Origin: Planctomycetales bacterium
GTDB lineage: Bacteria; 4484-113
Assembly: GCA_030606285.1 (NCBI GenBank)
Contig: JAUWGS010000010.1
Coordinates: forward strand, 1-64,000
Direction of reading: 5' to 3'
Length of the DNA stretch: 64,000 bases
Made by a program: the position numbers and the translations under genes. The first letter of the stretch is position 1; every line of letters starts with the position of its first letter. The notes under the pieces were generated by a model. It worked only from the letters and a program-made list of their open reading frames with translations. It did no database searches and was not told where the DNA came from. Of this stretch, positions 3,997 through 55,298 are shown in pieces.

Positions 3997-5781
3997 ATGG
4001 CTGGGAAGACTGTTTTTCGCTTAGTGCAAATGTCGGTGATGCTGGCAGTTCTGCTGGTGCTGAGCACGTGCGGTGGGAAGAGCAAGGGCAACACGCCCAG
4101 CGTTCCGGGGATTGACGCGGCGCAAACGGATGCGCAAACACCGATTGAGATTCCACGCGACGAAACGCTGGCGGAGCTTGAGAGGATGGAATGCCCGGAG
4201 GGTGTGGAAGAAGCGTTGTTTGATGAGTTGAAGGATGCGCTGGTGGAGGCGCTGAAAAATTCCTGTAGGGCGGCCATTTATGGCCGCCGCGATTCTAGCC
4301 GGAAAGATGACGGCGGGGATGAATCCCCGCCCTACAGCGATTCATCCGTGGACGGCGACGGGCACAGCATGCTGTGCCCCTACAAGTCCGTGGCGACACC
4401 CCCTACCGGCGAAGCAAATCGGGTCAATGACCTCACCATCACCGATAATGGCGATGGGACGTTTACGCTTTCGTGGCATTATAAAAACCTCGGCGATTAC
4501 GACCAGAACGGCACGGTCGGCATCTCCGACATCACGCCCCTGGCTATCCACTACGGCGAAGAAGTCGCTGAAGGCGACACCGAGCGCAATAGTATTCAAG
4601 CCGTAGTTGACGGCTCCAGAAACGACATTGTGGACATAGCCGACATCACGCCGGTTGCGATGAATTACGGAATCGAGTGCGTGACGTATTCCATCCGCAG
4701 CGCTTTATCCTACCCCGAAGACATTGAGGAGACCTCGGAGATTAACACGGCTCCGGTAGCGCTCGCGGAAGGCGACGACAGGAAGATTTTCAGTGTGGAA
4801 CTTACCCTAAGCCCGCTTACGTACGTCGCGGTTGCGCCTGTTGACGCGGAGGGCGAATTCGGCGAGCTTTCCAATGCAGTTGAACTTCCACCTGAGCCTT
4901 ACGACACATTTTCATTTGCCATTGTGGCCGATCCGCATATCGATGGGAACGTAGACCATGAGACAGCGTTGAGGATCGCTGTTCAGTGGATTATCGACAA
5001 CAAAGAGAGCAGGGATATTGAACTCGTGTTTATTGTTGGTGATATCGCGTGGGGCGCTGCCGGAGAGCTTAGGAACTTACAGATCGCGAAGGAAATCCTG
5101 GACGCCCTGACTGACGCGGGCGTTCTCTACGTCCCCGTAATGGGCGATAACGAAGTTGCCGCCGGCAGCGAATTGGAGTTCAACGATGTCTTCGGCGTGC
5201 AGTACCAGTACCTTTCAGGCGTGCTTGAGAACTGGCAGAAGGCTGACGTGCCCGTAAGCGGCATGTACCTCCAGAATTTCTCCTTCGACCGTAAACTCGT
5301 TCACTTTGTGGGCGCGGATTTCGTATCGAGAGAAACCGGTGATGAAGGCGGAGAACTCCACGATTTCCCGGGAGGCTCGTGGCAGTGGTTCAAGAACGAT
5401 ATTACAAACAGCCCCAAGCTCAGGGAAGAAAACACAATCGTTCTGACGCACATTGGGATGTTTTGCACGGGAATTCCTGCTGTGGACGAGTTCCTTTTCA
5501 CAGAAGATGAAATGGCCAAGGTAATCGGCTTTCTCGATGCTTACGGAGAGTACGTCGATTCCAACTATTCAGGGCACATCCATCAGAATTTGTATACGGT
5601 AGTACTGTCCGAATCCGGTACGCACCTCTACGATGTGTGGGTAACCGACGAGACCTGGTACGATACGGTCTGGCCGGAGATCGATGACCATGAAACAACC
5701 GTTAGAGTGGTCTCTGTGGATAGCACTGCTACTTCCTTTTCCTACACTCAGGATGTCGTGGACGCTGGGCTACAGGATTGA
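3997..5781 (+). CDS. Lipoprotein with dockerin-like F-hands and metallophosphoesterase domain
   Basis: 594 residues. A signal peptide ends in LSTC (lipobox). Next come a helical segment (about 55-88), a repeat-derived linker (about 90-127), and a conserved TGEANRVNDL segment. A dockerin-like pair of calcium-loop/F-hand repeats follows at about 166-188 (DYDQNGTVGISD) and 203-225 (DGSRNDIVDIAD). The C-terminal part is a calcineurin-type metallophosphoesterase with DPH (310), GD (348), GDNE (382), THIG (483) and GHIH (525), the expected metal ligands. GDNE stands where GNHE is usual. The likely role is a surface- or periplasm-exposed phosphoesterase of unknown substrate. A GGGGGA ribosome site precedes ATG 3997. 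The linker holds palindromic repeats also found between genes, inserted without breaking the frame. The N-terminal half is paralogous to the protein at 49878-53522. Confidence 0.8.
   Translation: MAGKTVFRLVQMSVMLAVLLVLSTCGGKSKGNTPSVPGIDAAQTDAQTPIEIPRDETLAELERMECPEGVEEALFDELKDALVEALKNSCRAAIYGRRDSSRKDDGGDESPPYSDSSVDGDGHSMLCPYKSVATPPTGEANRVNDLTITDNGDGTFTLSWHYKNLGDYDQNGTVGISDITPLAIHYGEEVAEGDTERNSIQAVVDGSRNDIVDIADITPVAMNYGIECVTYSIRSALSYPEDIEETSEINTAPVALAEGDDRKIFSVELTLSPLTYVAVAPVDAEGEFGELSNAVELPPEPYDTFSFAIVADPHIDGNVDHETALRIAVQWIIDNKESRDIELVFIVGDIAWGAAGELRNLQIAKEILDALTDAGVLYVPVMGDNEVAAGSELEFNDVFGVQYQYLSGVLENWQKADVPVSGMYLQNFSFDRKLVHFVGADFVSRETGDEGGELHDFPGGSWQWFKNDITNSPKLREENTIVLTHIGMFCTGIPAVDEFLFTEDEMAKVIGFLDAYGEYVDSNYSGHIHQNLYTVVLSESGTHLYDVWVTDETWYDTVWPEIDDHETTVRVVSVDSTATSFSYTQDVVDAGLQD
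4263..4337. repeat. 75-bp palindromic-ended repeat, copy inside a gene
   Basis: Same ends (CTGTAGGGCGG...CCGCCCTACAG) and same length as 24-98, with the first 27 bases identical except one. It lies inside the phosphoesterase lipoprotein and adds 25 codons with no stop, encoding a low-complexity linker rich in Arg, Ser and Asp. Confidence 0.75.
4360..4379. repeat. Perfect 20-bp palindrome inside a gene
   Basis: GGGCACAGCATGCTGTGCCC is its own reverse complement. It lies 22 bp after the 75-bp element in the same linker, followed by CCTACA as in other repeats of this genome. Confidence 0.7.
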
Positions 5782-49877: not shown

Positions 49878-52800
49878 GTGTCAAGGCTATTCAGGCTTAG
49901 TGTTATCGCTGCGGTGCTATTGGCTGCGCTTGCTCTCGCCGCGTGCGGGAGCAAGAAGACACGGCTGGTGCCGCAACTCGCATCGGAAGGAACCCCGCCA
50001 ACTCTGACGCAACCCGCAACGGCGGTTTCCCTCGACGACGCGCTTACCGAACTCGACGCGCTTCCTACGCCGGAGGGCGTGGATGAAGCGCTGTTTGCGG
50101 AATTGAAGGAAGCGCTGCAGGACGCGCTGAGTGATTCCTGTAGGGCGGGGACAATCACCGGTGGCACGGGCGTCCCGCCCGTGATTCAGGTGGTTCGCAG
50201 GCGAGACGCCTGCGCCACCAAACTAACTTCCACTCCCCCCACCGGCGAAGCCAACCGGGTCAACGACCTCGGCATCACCGACAACGGCGACGGCACGTTC
50301 ACGCTTTCCTGGCACTACCGCAACCTCGGCGACTACGACCAGAATGGCACTGTCGCCGTAGAAGACATAATCCCACTGGCGTTACACTATGGCGAGGAAG
50401 TTCTGTATCACCGCCACAACTCGCTGCAAGCGGTCATTGATGGGTCCAACAACGGTTGTATTGGAATCGAAGACATCACGCCGATTGCAGTGCATCTTAC
50501 AGAGGACGTGCACCATTACGCTGTAGAGGGCGCGTCCTCAGCCGACGAGCCGTGGGAATGGATACGGGATGTGGCGCTGGAAGAGGGCACAGGCGAAGGA
50601 CGGAAGACCTACGAAGCCATACTGGACGATGCCATATACCAGTGGTACCGCGTTGTGACGGTTGACGCTGAAGGTAATCGGGCTGCCTACAGCACAAGTG
50701 TTTGGCTTCAATTTGGCCCCGCCGCGCCTTTAGTGACTAGAGTGTCTCCCACACTGCTACTCGCTGGTGCGGAAGCTTCGTTTAAGGCTACTGTAAAAGG
50801 AACCGGCCCCTTCGACTACGAGTGGGAATTCGGCGATGCGGCAACGCCCAGCGAATCGAACGATCCCGAGCCGACAGTTACAATAGGTCCGGCAGGACAG
50901 CATGTATGTCGTGTGCGCGTGTCCAACGATTACGGCACACACCTTTTCACGTTCTCAGTCACCGTGTCAGCGGATTACGGCGACTGGCGGATGGAGGGGA
51001 GAGATGCGCAACATACGCGCTGCAGCCCCTTCATCGGGCCATCCTCGCCAGTCGTGAAGTGGATGCTGCCTTTCGAAGTGACGTCCAGCGGCGGGAGGGA
51101 AGGCTCGTTTAACGCCTTAGGAACTATCTACATCCTCTGCCGCAGTCACAGCTTATATGCAGTTAACCCTTGGGGAATGATTGAATGGGATCATGAACTG
51201 CGGAATACCCTCGCAGTGACACCTGCCGTCGCTGCTGACGGTACTATCTATGCGCCTGACATGTATCACACCATAAGTGCGTTTAGTCCTGACGGCACCG
51301 TTAAATGGAATTTCGCGCCTGGCCTGGGTGGGTACTGGTCCAGTCCAACCATCGGTGTAGACGGCACAATCTACGCGGTTCATGGACTGTCGAGCAACAG
51401 CTATCTCTACGCCATCACCCCTGAGGGCGACACGCTGTGGACCTGCAGTCTTGAGGGCGGGGAGCCTGCTTGCCCCGCCCTAGCATCCGATAGAACAGTT
51501 TATATCGGCACTAACGCATACGAACTCAGCCATGAGAATGGGGGATACATATACACGGGTTATCTACACGCGATAGGCGCTCCGGGGAACCTGAAATGGA
51601 GTTACAGCGTAGAAGACCGTATTCGTTCTGGAGTATCAGTCGGAAAAGACGGAACAATCTACTTAGGATGCAACGATAACCATATCTACGCGATAAATCC
51701 TGATGGCAGCTTGAAATGGCTCTCCGAAGTAAGCGATGACGTCAAAGGGGGGCCTGCAATCGCTAAAGACGGAACAATATTGATTAGCTGCCGCAATGGT
51801 CGATTGCACGCCCTAAGCCCCGACGGTACTCCCAAATGGGAACGCGAGCACTGCGGCAGCTCTCATCCAGTAATCGATGCCGATGGCTGTATATACGCTA
51901 GTAGCAGCCGGCAAGTGGTAGCACTGCATCCCGACGGAACGCTGAAGTGGCAGTTCGACATTGACAACAGTCTGGGCGGGAACACAGGTATAAGTATGGC
52001 CTTAGACGGGTCGCTTTACGTGCACTTTCCCAATGGCGAACTCTACGCCTTTTCTGGTTGTGAACAGGTTCCTCTGGCAATCTCATCGGTCTCTCCCCAA
52101 AACGGACTCGCTAGCAAGCCAACGGCATTCAGCTTCATCTACAGCGGGAGCACACCCACCGAGTACTTCTGGGATTTTGGCGGCGGAGCTGAACCGAGTA
52201 CTTCAGAAGAAGAGAACCCGATTGTTACGCTGGGAACGGTTGGAGAGTACGACGCTTCACTGACCATTCGCAACGAGTATAACGAGGATATATTCCCTTT
52301 CACGCTCACGGTAAGAGAAGTTCCCCACGAGCCGTGGGTGCACACCTGGGGCACCGAGCGGTACGAATACGCTAGCGCTCTGGCAGTAGATTGCTCTGGT
52401 AGCATTTGGGTTGCTGGGAGCACAGCACTACTTAAGTATAGTCCTTGTGGCGAACTGATTCTCGCCAACTCATGGGAATATGACAGTTACGGTAGTTTGA
52501 TCCCTAGTGGTATCGTGATGGACACGAGCGGATATGCCTACATTGTGGTGTATGGAACCGGTGTTGCTGGTGTATTGCTGCTCAGGTTCGACCAAGCGGG
52601 CAGCCTGCTATGGAATCGAACCTGGACCGGGCACGCGGATAGTGCTTACGGGATGACGCTGGATGAATTCGGGAATGCTCTTGTCGTGGGTGAAACGTTC
52701 AAAGACACCGGATGGTTCCCCGACATCATGCTGCTGAAATACGATTCAGAAGGCAACCTGCTATTCTCCAAGGCCTTGCGAATGGAGCTTATCCAATCTG

Positions 52801-53522
52801 CTACCTCGGCCACACATAGTGGGGCGCGATTATACGTCGTTGGTCTTGATGCTGGATGGGGGTATTGCCGAGGATTAGTGGCAGCCTTTGACTGCGAAGG
52901 CCAGTTCTTATGGGGACGATACTGTGAAAACGCACCTGAACTGACTACGGTAGGAGTTGATAGCGCTGGAAACCTTTATACTGCTGGCCGCTGCTATTTC
53001 AACGATTCTTACGGTATCCTGCTGTTTAAAATCAACGGAGAGGGCAGTGTTCTATGGAGCAAACTGTTATGCTCTCCAACGAACTCCTACAGCGTAAGCG
53101 ACATCATTACCAACGAAACAGGAGATCTCTACATTGTGGGGAGCAGCGTTTCTACGCTCGATCCAGACTCCCCCCGGGGGCTGCTTTTCCTCAAATTGAG
53201 TGCCGAGGGTCGCGTACTCCGGAGCATGAAGTGGCAGCCTGTGGACCCTCAGAGCGATGGAGCATCGGGATACGCGCTATGCGTTGACGGTGAGGATGTT
53301 TACATTGCGGGGGGCGCACCTAACATCGCTGCCTGCTGGCATAACGTGGTCACACTCGCGCTGCCACTTTCGGTATCTCTGATCCCCTTTGACGGCGCTG
53401 TTGAAGAGGTCACAGGTTCTGAGGGATCACTCGAACTCACAGAAAGCCCGGTCCAAGGCGTAATCGACCAGGGGGGAGGCGGATGGAGCGATTTCCTCCT
53501 CCTCAAGAACTACCCGCCTTAG
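49878..53522 (+). CDS. Large lipoprotein: dockerin-like, PKD, PQQ-type and SBBP propellers
   Basis: 1214 residues. The lipobox is LAAC. A helical segment (about 52-88) precedes a repeat-derived linker (about 88-118), then TGEANRVNDL. Two dockerin-like F-hands follow at about 150-172 (DYDQNGTVAVED) and 185-207 (DGSNNGCIGIED). PKD-1 is at about 284-355. A PQQ-type propeller lies at about 371-731, with repeats of DGTIYxxxxDxxLYAIxPDGxLKW. PKD-2 is at about 737-811. An SBBP-type propeller runs about 821-1160, and the end is Gly-rich. It is probably a surface adhesin or binding scaffold. The N-terminal third is paralogous to 3997-5781. The C-terminus matches the orphan fragment at 6486-7190. Confidence 0.8.
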   Translation: MSRLFRLSVIAAVLLAALALAACGSKKTRLVPQLASEGTPPTLTQPATAVSLDDALTELDALPTPEGVDEALFAELKEALQDALSDSCRAGTITGGTGVPPVIQVVRRRDACATKLTSTPPTGEANRVNDLGITDNGDGTFTLSWHYRNLGDYDQNGTVAVEDIIPLALHYGEEVLYHRHNSLQAVIDGSNNGCIGIEDITPIAVHLTEDVHHYAVEGASSADEPWEWIRDVALEEGTGEGRKTYEAILDDAIYQWYRVVTVDAEGNRAAYSTSVWLQFGPAAPLVTRVSPTLLLAGAEASFKATVKGTGPFDYEWEFGDAATPSESNDPEPTVTIGPAGQHVCRVRVSNDYGTHLFTFSVTVSADYGDWRMEGRDAQHTRCSPFIGPSSPVVKWMLPFEVTSSGGREGSFNALGTIYILCRSHSLYAVNPWGMIEWDHELRNTLAVTPAVAADGTIYAPDMYHTISAFSPDGTVKWNFAPGLGGYWSSPTIGVDGTIYAVHGLSSNSYLYAITPEGDTLWTCSLEGGEPACPALASDRTVYIGTNAYELSHENGGYIYTGYLHAIGAPGNLKWSYSVEDRIRSGVSVGKDGTIYLGCNDNHIYAINPDGSLKWLSEVSDDVKGGPAIAKDGTILISCRNGRLHALSPDGTPKWEREHCGSSHPVIDADGCIYASSSRQVVALHPDGTLKWQFDIDNSLGGNTGISMALDGSLYVHFPNGELYAFSGCEQVPLAISSVSPQNGLASKPTAFSFIYSGSTPTEYFWDFGGGAEPSTSEEENPIVTLGTVGEYDASLTIRNEYNEDIFPFTLTVREVPHEPWVHTWGTERYEYASALAVDCSGSIWVAGSTALLKYSPCGELILANSWEYDSYGSLIPSGIVMDTSGYAYIVVYGTGVAGVLLLRFDQAGSLLWNRTWTGHADSAYGMTLDEFGNALVVGETFKDTGWFPDIMLLKYDSEGNLLFSKALRMELIQSATSATHSGARLYVVGLDAGWGYCRGLVAAFDCEGQFLWGRYCENAPELTTVGVDSAGNLYTAGRCYFNDSYGILLFKINGEGSVLWSKLLCSPTNSYSVSDIITNETGDLYIVGSSVSTLDPDSPRGLLFLKLSAEGRVLRSMKWQPVDPQSDGASGYALCVDGEDVYIAGGAPNIAACWHNVVTLALPLSVSLIPFDGAVEEVTGSEGSLELTESPVQGVIDQGGGGWSDFLLLKNYPP
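50138..50219. repeat. Composite palindromic repeats inside a gene
   Basis: CTGTAGGGCGGGG is followed from 50160 by a unit bounded by GGTGGCACGGG and GCGCCACC. It contains two hairpins, GGGCG-TCC-CGCCC and CGCAGGCG-AGA-CGCCTGCG. A partial intergenic copy of the first hairpin lies near 9729. The insertion keeps the frame and encodes the linker before the dockerin-like domain. Confidence 0.7.
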
Positions 53523-55071: not shown

Positions 55072-55150
55072 GCGCCCATTCTAGCACGCGGCACGCGATG
55101 TCTTTTGCCTCTTTCAAGTACGCGGTGCTGACTAGCGCCGCTCCTAATAG

Positions 55151-55168
55151 CCGGGCTAGTGAGCCCGG
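55151..55168. repeat. Perfect 7-bp hairpin
   Basis: CCGGGCT-AGTG-AGCCCGG followed by CCTACC. It lies upstream of the B3/4 gene in the 227-bp gap 55072-55298, which holds only repeats. Confidence 0.5.
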
Positions 55169-55230
55169 CCTACCCAGCTCGTCTAATATACAAGGGTGGG
55201 GCTAAAAATGGAGTGGTGACCTCTAGGTCG

Positions 55231-55256
55231 CCACACCTTAATCGCGCAACCTGGAG
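55231..55256. repeat. 26-nt dispersed repeat, copy 2
   Basis: 24 of 26 bases match 9818-9843. Confidence 0.6.
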
Positions 55257-55272
55257 GTCGCGCGTCCGGATT

Positions 55273-55298
55273 GTAGGGCGGGGTCTCCGCGCCCCGCC
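55273..55298. repeat. Palindromic repeat abutting a stop codon
   Basis: TGTAGGGCGGGG and CCCCGCC form a 7-bp stem. The last base lies next to the TAA of the following minus-strand gene, so the hairpin would be at the very 3' end of that message. There is no T-run. Confidence 0.55.

Follow-up and report, generated by a model that had tools for sequence, protein, structure and literature searches.

In-frame GTAG-type REP elements at one linker position in a large lipoprotein family, apparently copied among paralogues, in the genome of a Planctomycetales bacterium

Palindromic repeats lying in frame within proteins are already known, both as intragenic GTAG REPs (Di Nocera et al. 2013, PMC3733652) and as Rickettsia palindromic elements (RPEs; PMC10969869). 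The signature of GTAG REPs is a GTAG tag placed before hairpins; those located within ORFs are in frame, occur mostly as inverted dimers and add 20-30 residues, and tolerance of linkers or loops was proposed for them (PMC3733652). Repeats of this class are recognised by TnpA-REP/RAYT, and CT is the dinucleotide cleaved in vitro by the TnpA-REP of E. coli (PMC8266576). In-frame REPs have so far been reported as scattered, puzzling exceptions.

The DNA analyzed here (hereafter the window) is a stretch of 64,000 nucleotides, corresponding to C20:1-64000 of a metagenome assembly of 2.30 Mb in 36 contigs (G000). An ORF on its forward strand (3997-5781, 594 aa), with paralogous matches in the same genome, was recognised as a lipoprotein gene consisting of a signal peptide with lipobox (LSTC), a helical prefix, a linker, a dockerin-like module and a unique C-terminal region. 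Based on paralogue alignment, the prefix module (signal peptide plus a helix ending in KDALVEAL) spans 3997-4257, while the dockerin-like module, named by resemblance only and containing two DYDQNGTVGISDITPLAIHYG-type repeats, spans 4390-4896 according to both its sequence and the alignment. Between them, the whole expanded linker (4258-4389) comprises 44 residues, compared with 7 in the insert-free members of the family. No Pfam or NCBIfam family was matched at its cut-off by the window protein in profile searches, nor did the prefix or the dockerin-like module exceed the cut-off of any model from these two collections, and Rfam matches on the window were limited to tRNA and SRP RNA.

The linker contains a 75-bp element (4263-4337) with ends CTGTAGGGCGG/CCGCCCTACAG, which has no stop in the frame of the ORF and encodes approximately 25 residues. 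A preliminary description of this DNA had likened it, in its ends, length and left hairpin, to an intergenic element at 24-98 of the forward strand, and alignment bore this out: the two are identical at 55 of 75 positions overall and at 26 of 27 in the left hairpin, with the differences concentrated in the spacer. At both ends of the linker element the tetranucleotide GTAG stands directly 5' of a short palindrome, giving REP unit A1 (TGTAGGGCGGCC-ATTTAT-GGCCGCC; 4264-4288, forward strand) and REP unit A2 (TGTAGGGCGGGG-ATTCAT-CCCCGCC; 4312-4336, reverse strand), separated by a 23-bp spacer. When folded as single-stranded DNA, the element formed a pair of hairpins enclosed by its base-paired ends (z = -4.0; none of 200 shuffles was as good). 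The element is a GTAG-type REP doublet, REPIN-like in structure, and is referred to as type A. The gain of 25 stop-free codons described earlier holds for this doublet, but the insert is longer, since a second in-frame REP (unit K, an exact GTAGGGGCACAGCATGCTGTGCCC; 4360-4383, reverse strand) begins 22 bp downstream of it. Likewise, the comparison with Rickettsia holds for a palindromic repeat being in frame, whereas identity with a Rickettsia palindromic element proper (CGTC tag or approximately 150-bp sequence; PMC3733652) was ruled out by the GTAG tag and the 75-bp length, and the closest precedent is therefore that of the intragenic GTAG REPs.

The genome search for further copies, which had been proposed as a check, recovered 26 full type A copies and none in a reversed control, together with 92 + 81 half motifs (8 + 6 in the control). 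The full copies have 73-76 bp between their outer motifs, constant ends and varied spacers of approximately 23-26 bp; in a comparison limited to occupied sites, their flanks showed no constant target-site duplication of the kind that would mark a MITE of a DDE transposase. In an unbiased sample of 383 kb (all of C12 and C17 plus C8:1-40000), perfect GC-rich hairpins were immediately preceded on their 5' side by GTAG more often than by any other tetranucleotide (in 49 of 428 cases, a 35-fold enrichment over background). The 59 merged REP elements of this sample were mostly intergenic (48), with two partly genic and nine inside genes predicted with a codon model as part of this analysis, in line with the earlier proposal that a mobile-type palindromic repeat had come to serve as an in-frame linker. 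Four of the nine lie in the family linker described below, two at doubtful gene starts, and three in a single gene on the reverse strand (C12:104012-107140, locus L177). The latter encodes a protein of 1043 aa with, by eye, a cyclase-like start and ATPase and TPR-like parts, in which C- and K-type REPs are in frame at two or three sites that appear to separate domains; the family linker is thus not the sole coding site.

Among intergenic A copies, those with identical spacers share at least one flank. The copy at 24-98 recurs with matching flanks at C19:25 and C30:331, and a second such set comprises C8:9922, C12:153964 and C34:167, where C12:153964 has only its left flank in common with the other two. 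This sharing of one flank suggests that REPs between genes have likewise been breakpoints of recombination.

RAYT genes were searched with the NCBIfam model NF047646 (cut-off 80). Those on C25 (92 bits) and C29 (88 bits) were over the cut-off, the one on C30 was just under it (76.2 bits), and further RAYT fragments were detected at C26 and C15. The C29 gene is flanked by two halves of an F element, one of the linker types described below, and K units lie to either side of the C30 gene, with an additional one inside its reading frame and A/B-type units beyond the flanking ones. This in-frame K-type REP (locus L018, ORF 1108-1710 in the locus) reads APRAQHAVPLR and may account for the score of the C30 protein just below the family cut-off.

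The window lipoprotein has 72 paralogous matches in its own genome, and 62 family ORFs were found in the genome stretches examined; dockerin-like lipoproteins are very greatly expanded in G000, at approximately 60 loci. Members consist of a signal peptide, a helical prefix ending in KDALxEAL, the linker, the sequence (K)(F/L)(V/A)STPPTGEANRV and the dockerin-like module, downstream of which they differ strongly. In insert-free members the linker is always 7 residues long (AKGVSKI and similar), while repeat-derived inserts are present in 27 of approximately 41 members (25 members plus two that start inside the insert at contig ends, C22 and C27), at one fixed position between prefix and module. 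Filled linkers have 16-50 residues where complete, that of C16 being interrupted by a contig end.

At least nine insert types (A to I) were distinguished, in varying orientation and frame. Type A is found in the window gene, C11 and C16 and, with other spacers and in the opposite orientation, in C9 and C17. Other types are B (TGTAGGGCGCGC), D (GGGTAGGCGGGGC...GCCCGGCCTACCC, which also occurs as a D/A hybrid), E (GGAGTCGCGAC), I (TGTAGGGGCAATTCACGAATTGCCC), and the further repeat-derived inserts F and G, the edges of F (CACGAACAAT...GGAATGGGCAAA) consisting of non-REP bases. A second family member in the window (49887-53519, forward strand; PQQ_2, PKD and SBBP domains downstream) has an in-frame linker (50138-50219, forward strand) in which half an A element precedes an inverted doublet of type C (GGTGGCACGGGCG...CGCCTGCGCCACC). 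Type H, a CCCTAATCCC-like tandem, is not a REP; at C30:14066-16045, C35:6987-9671 and C12:24462-27284 it takes the form of a CCCTAATCCCTCATCCCTAA-like tandem that lacks a hairpin. Nor are the tandem tails of the E and I inserts REPs, and tails of this kind follow the REPs in the linkers of C26:120482 and C36. Repeat types found in linkers also make up an intergenic cluster at 55150-55298 of the window, where D-, G- and A-type units lie side by side between two minus-strand ORFs. If elements were as dense in linkers as they are between genes (0.92 per kb), the 41 linkers, each 21-60 bp long, would be expected to contain 0.8-2.3 elements, against the at least nine distinct types observed (P from 2e-7 to 6e-4, in a post hoc comparison that takes types as independent events).

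The same linker is filled in related genomes. In G001, of the same genus, it contains E in three genes, B, a D-like element, and D2+K, and in G002, of the same family, a C-like doublet in three genes, so that REP-filled linkers were observed in three genomes; G007 and G009, of the same class, have other repeats at this position. Best reciprocal pairs between G000 and G001, at 51-61% identity and some of them possibly not strict orthologues, included filled and empty states in both directions: the F-filled C17:161908 and the G-filled C29:310059 are paired with empty G001 genes (C21 and C109, respectively), and the empty C33 with a D-like-filled gene (G001 C69). In the pair C26:120482/G001 C49 both linkers are filled and have the left E hairpin in common, while several well-conserved pairs are empty on both sides. 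The comparison with insert-free counterparts that had been called for was therefore possible for these members, but not for the window gene itself: its unique C-terminal part has no homologue in G001 or G002, so a strict insert-free orthologue is not demonstrable.

Gene pairs with the same insert type were 92-100% identical across the insert DNA, whereas the fourfold-degenerate sites to the left and right of shared inserts were mostly 27-70% identical. The clear exception was C11/C16, in which the prefixes match too (97% at fourfold sites). For F and G, 15-bp windows on the left side were 93-100% identical beside the insert and mostly 33-80% farther out, and on the right side they had fallen to 53-87% in most cases within 15-30 bp, scattered windows being higher; identity falls within approximately 15-45 bp of the insert. 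Copies of the window A element at 98.7-100% identity were found only in linkers (C11 and C16; partial in C22 and C27 at contig ends), those outside linkers being at most 87% identical, and the entire D, F, G, H and A+K inserts, non-REP edges included, had matches at 90% or more in linkers only. B and E inserts have intergenic relatives at 92-95%, and for these two types repeated insertion is as good an explanation as copying. Conversely, near-identical prefixes (86-93% at fourfold sites) are followed by different linkers (C29:2, D; C29:312727, D/A hybrid; C26:120482, E), and A, B, C or F linkers are found next to modules that are closely related to one another. On the prefix tree, linker types showed no clustering (18 changes, compared with 19.3 in shuffles; p = 0.18); on the module tree the clustering was weak (16 changes, compared with 19.8; p = 0.003).

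Near-identical inserts between strongly diverged flanks imply that linkers were copied among paralogues, beyond a single insertion. After REP insertion, the inserts appear to have passed from paralogue to paralogue, probably by recombination. The conserved sequences just outside the insert (GGATGCGCTGGGGGAGGCGCT on the left, TCCACYCCNCCNACCGGCGA on the right) are plausible homology arms, and gene conversion through them would be the simplest account of the copying. We consider it likely, and the best explanation of the data, that REPs entered the family linker, survived in frame and were then copied between paralogues. GTAG-type REP doublets and related palindromes would thus have come to lie in the short linker that joins the prefix to the dockerin-like module, presumably inserted by the resident RAYT transposases at CT sites; only in-frame, stop-free outcomes would have survived selection, and a REP-made linker, once present, could spread among paralogues, with the conserved arms serving for recombination or gene conversion.

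Alternatively, each linker copy could be a separate transposition into a preferred target at this conserved site, with no copying between paralogues. A and B elements start with CT-GTAG, which fits the cleavage at CT by TnpA-REP in vitro (PMC8266576), different types are found in both orientations at one site, and the intergenic B and E copies mentioned above are close to the linker copies. However, the non-REP bases on both sides belong to the shared inserts, as in F; complete F, G, H and D inserts are found at 90% or more nowhere outside linkers, and fresh intergenic copies would be expected from active transposition. As an account of the whole pattern, separate transposition is unlikely. 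A possible extension of the copying model is that the REP-filled linker acts in active diversification, RAYT nicking at linker REPs promoting recombination between paralogues and thereby reshuffling linkers and adjoining domains throughout this large surface-lipoprotein family; we regard this as a tentative idea and a decidedly doubtful one.

An assembly artefact, in which short repeats joined unrelated gene halves, had to be considered: the genomes were assembled from metagenomes, and in three cases (C16, C22 and C27) the A+K linker is cut by the end of its contig. Permuted joins among the genes that share a linker would nevertheless keep the count of diverged prefixes and modules beside that linker; as swapped joins leave the same set of diverged flanks, misassembly is unable to create the discordance. 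All inserts are, moreover, in frame, and the pattern recurs in the independently assembled G001 and G002, which makes an artefact very improbable. Very improbable as well is a single old insertion per type, passed on by gene duplication while the flanking domains diverged fast. The left hairpin common to the E linker of C26 and its G001 counterpart, as well as the linker and prefix shared by C11 and C16, would agree with it, but protein-level divergence alone does not explain near-saturated fourfold sites beside inserts that are 98-100% identical, and the near-identical prefixes with different linkers point the other way. Plain vertical duplication was rejected on the fourfold divergence.

That the peptide itself was selected, its likeness to intergenic repeats being incidental or secondary, is scarcely tenable: although the absence of stops and a high content of S, P, G, R and D, as is common in linkers, would agree with it, the inserts score as non-coding by the genome's own codon model (-3 to +2, vs. 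+13 to +36 for the flanks), and one and the same REP is translated in more than one frame and orientation (CRAAIYG, CRAGIYP or SVGRGF for type A; GHSMLCPYK in the window gene and AQHAVP in the C30 RAYT gene for type K). No particular peptide is thus conserved, and no sign was seen of the protein-level constraint on linker residues that would have spoken against a repeat origin. Linker elements are 62, 75, 76, 77 or 82 bp long, with the frame restored by flanking bases; the divisibility by 3 pointed out earlier is true of the 75-bp window element but is no rule. The AlphaFold model obtained for four sequences (pLDDT 40) was too poor to show linker disorder. The default reading, and the most likely one, is that the insert would be a flexible spacer which is tolerated, varies in length and separates the membrane-anchored prefix from the exposed module.

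In the searchable literature, which leaves subscription papers mostly outside, no report was found of many REP types filling, and being exchanged at, one gene-family linker. With approximately 27 inserts that arose naturally at a single position, and with insert-free paralogues and relatives to serve as controls, this family opens three questions to study: by what route REPs get into coding DNA, whether recombination among gene copies is driven by RAYT-associated repeats, and how selfish repeats are converted by bacteria into protein linkers. The inserts also carry a warning, as identical peptide stretches in such proteins reflect copying of DNA repeats and not common descent or function.

Compared with the known systems, the intragenic GTAG REPs resemble the inserts described here in their GTAG-tagged hairpins and in-frame location within ORFs, but they are found in scattered single genes (repair, tRNA and other enzymes) rather than at one site in dozens of paralogues. 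Different REPs at about one site were reported only for recB of two Xanthomonas species (PMC3733652), in contrast with at least nine types and copying between genes in the present case. REPINs (Bertels and Rainey 2011, PMC3116915) share the hairpin unit, the inverted REP doublet with variable spacer, and RAYT genes that are, as here, flanked by REPs; yet nearly all of the SBW25 16-mers lie outside genes (only 14 of 1,067 overlap one; PMC3116915), whereas here a coding linker is a main site. RPEs are likewise palindromic repeats in frame in proteins, but they are CGTC-tagged or approximately 150 bp long and lie in unrelated metabolic genes (PMC3733652, PMC10969869), while the elements described here are GTAG-tagged, approximately 75 bp long and located in one gene family.
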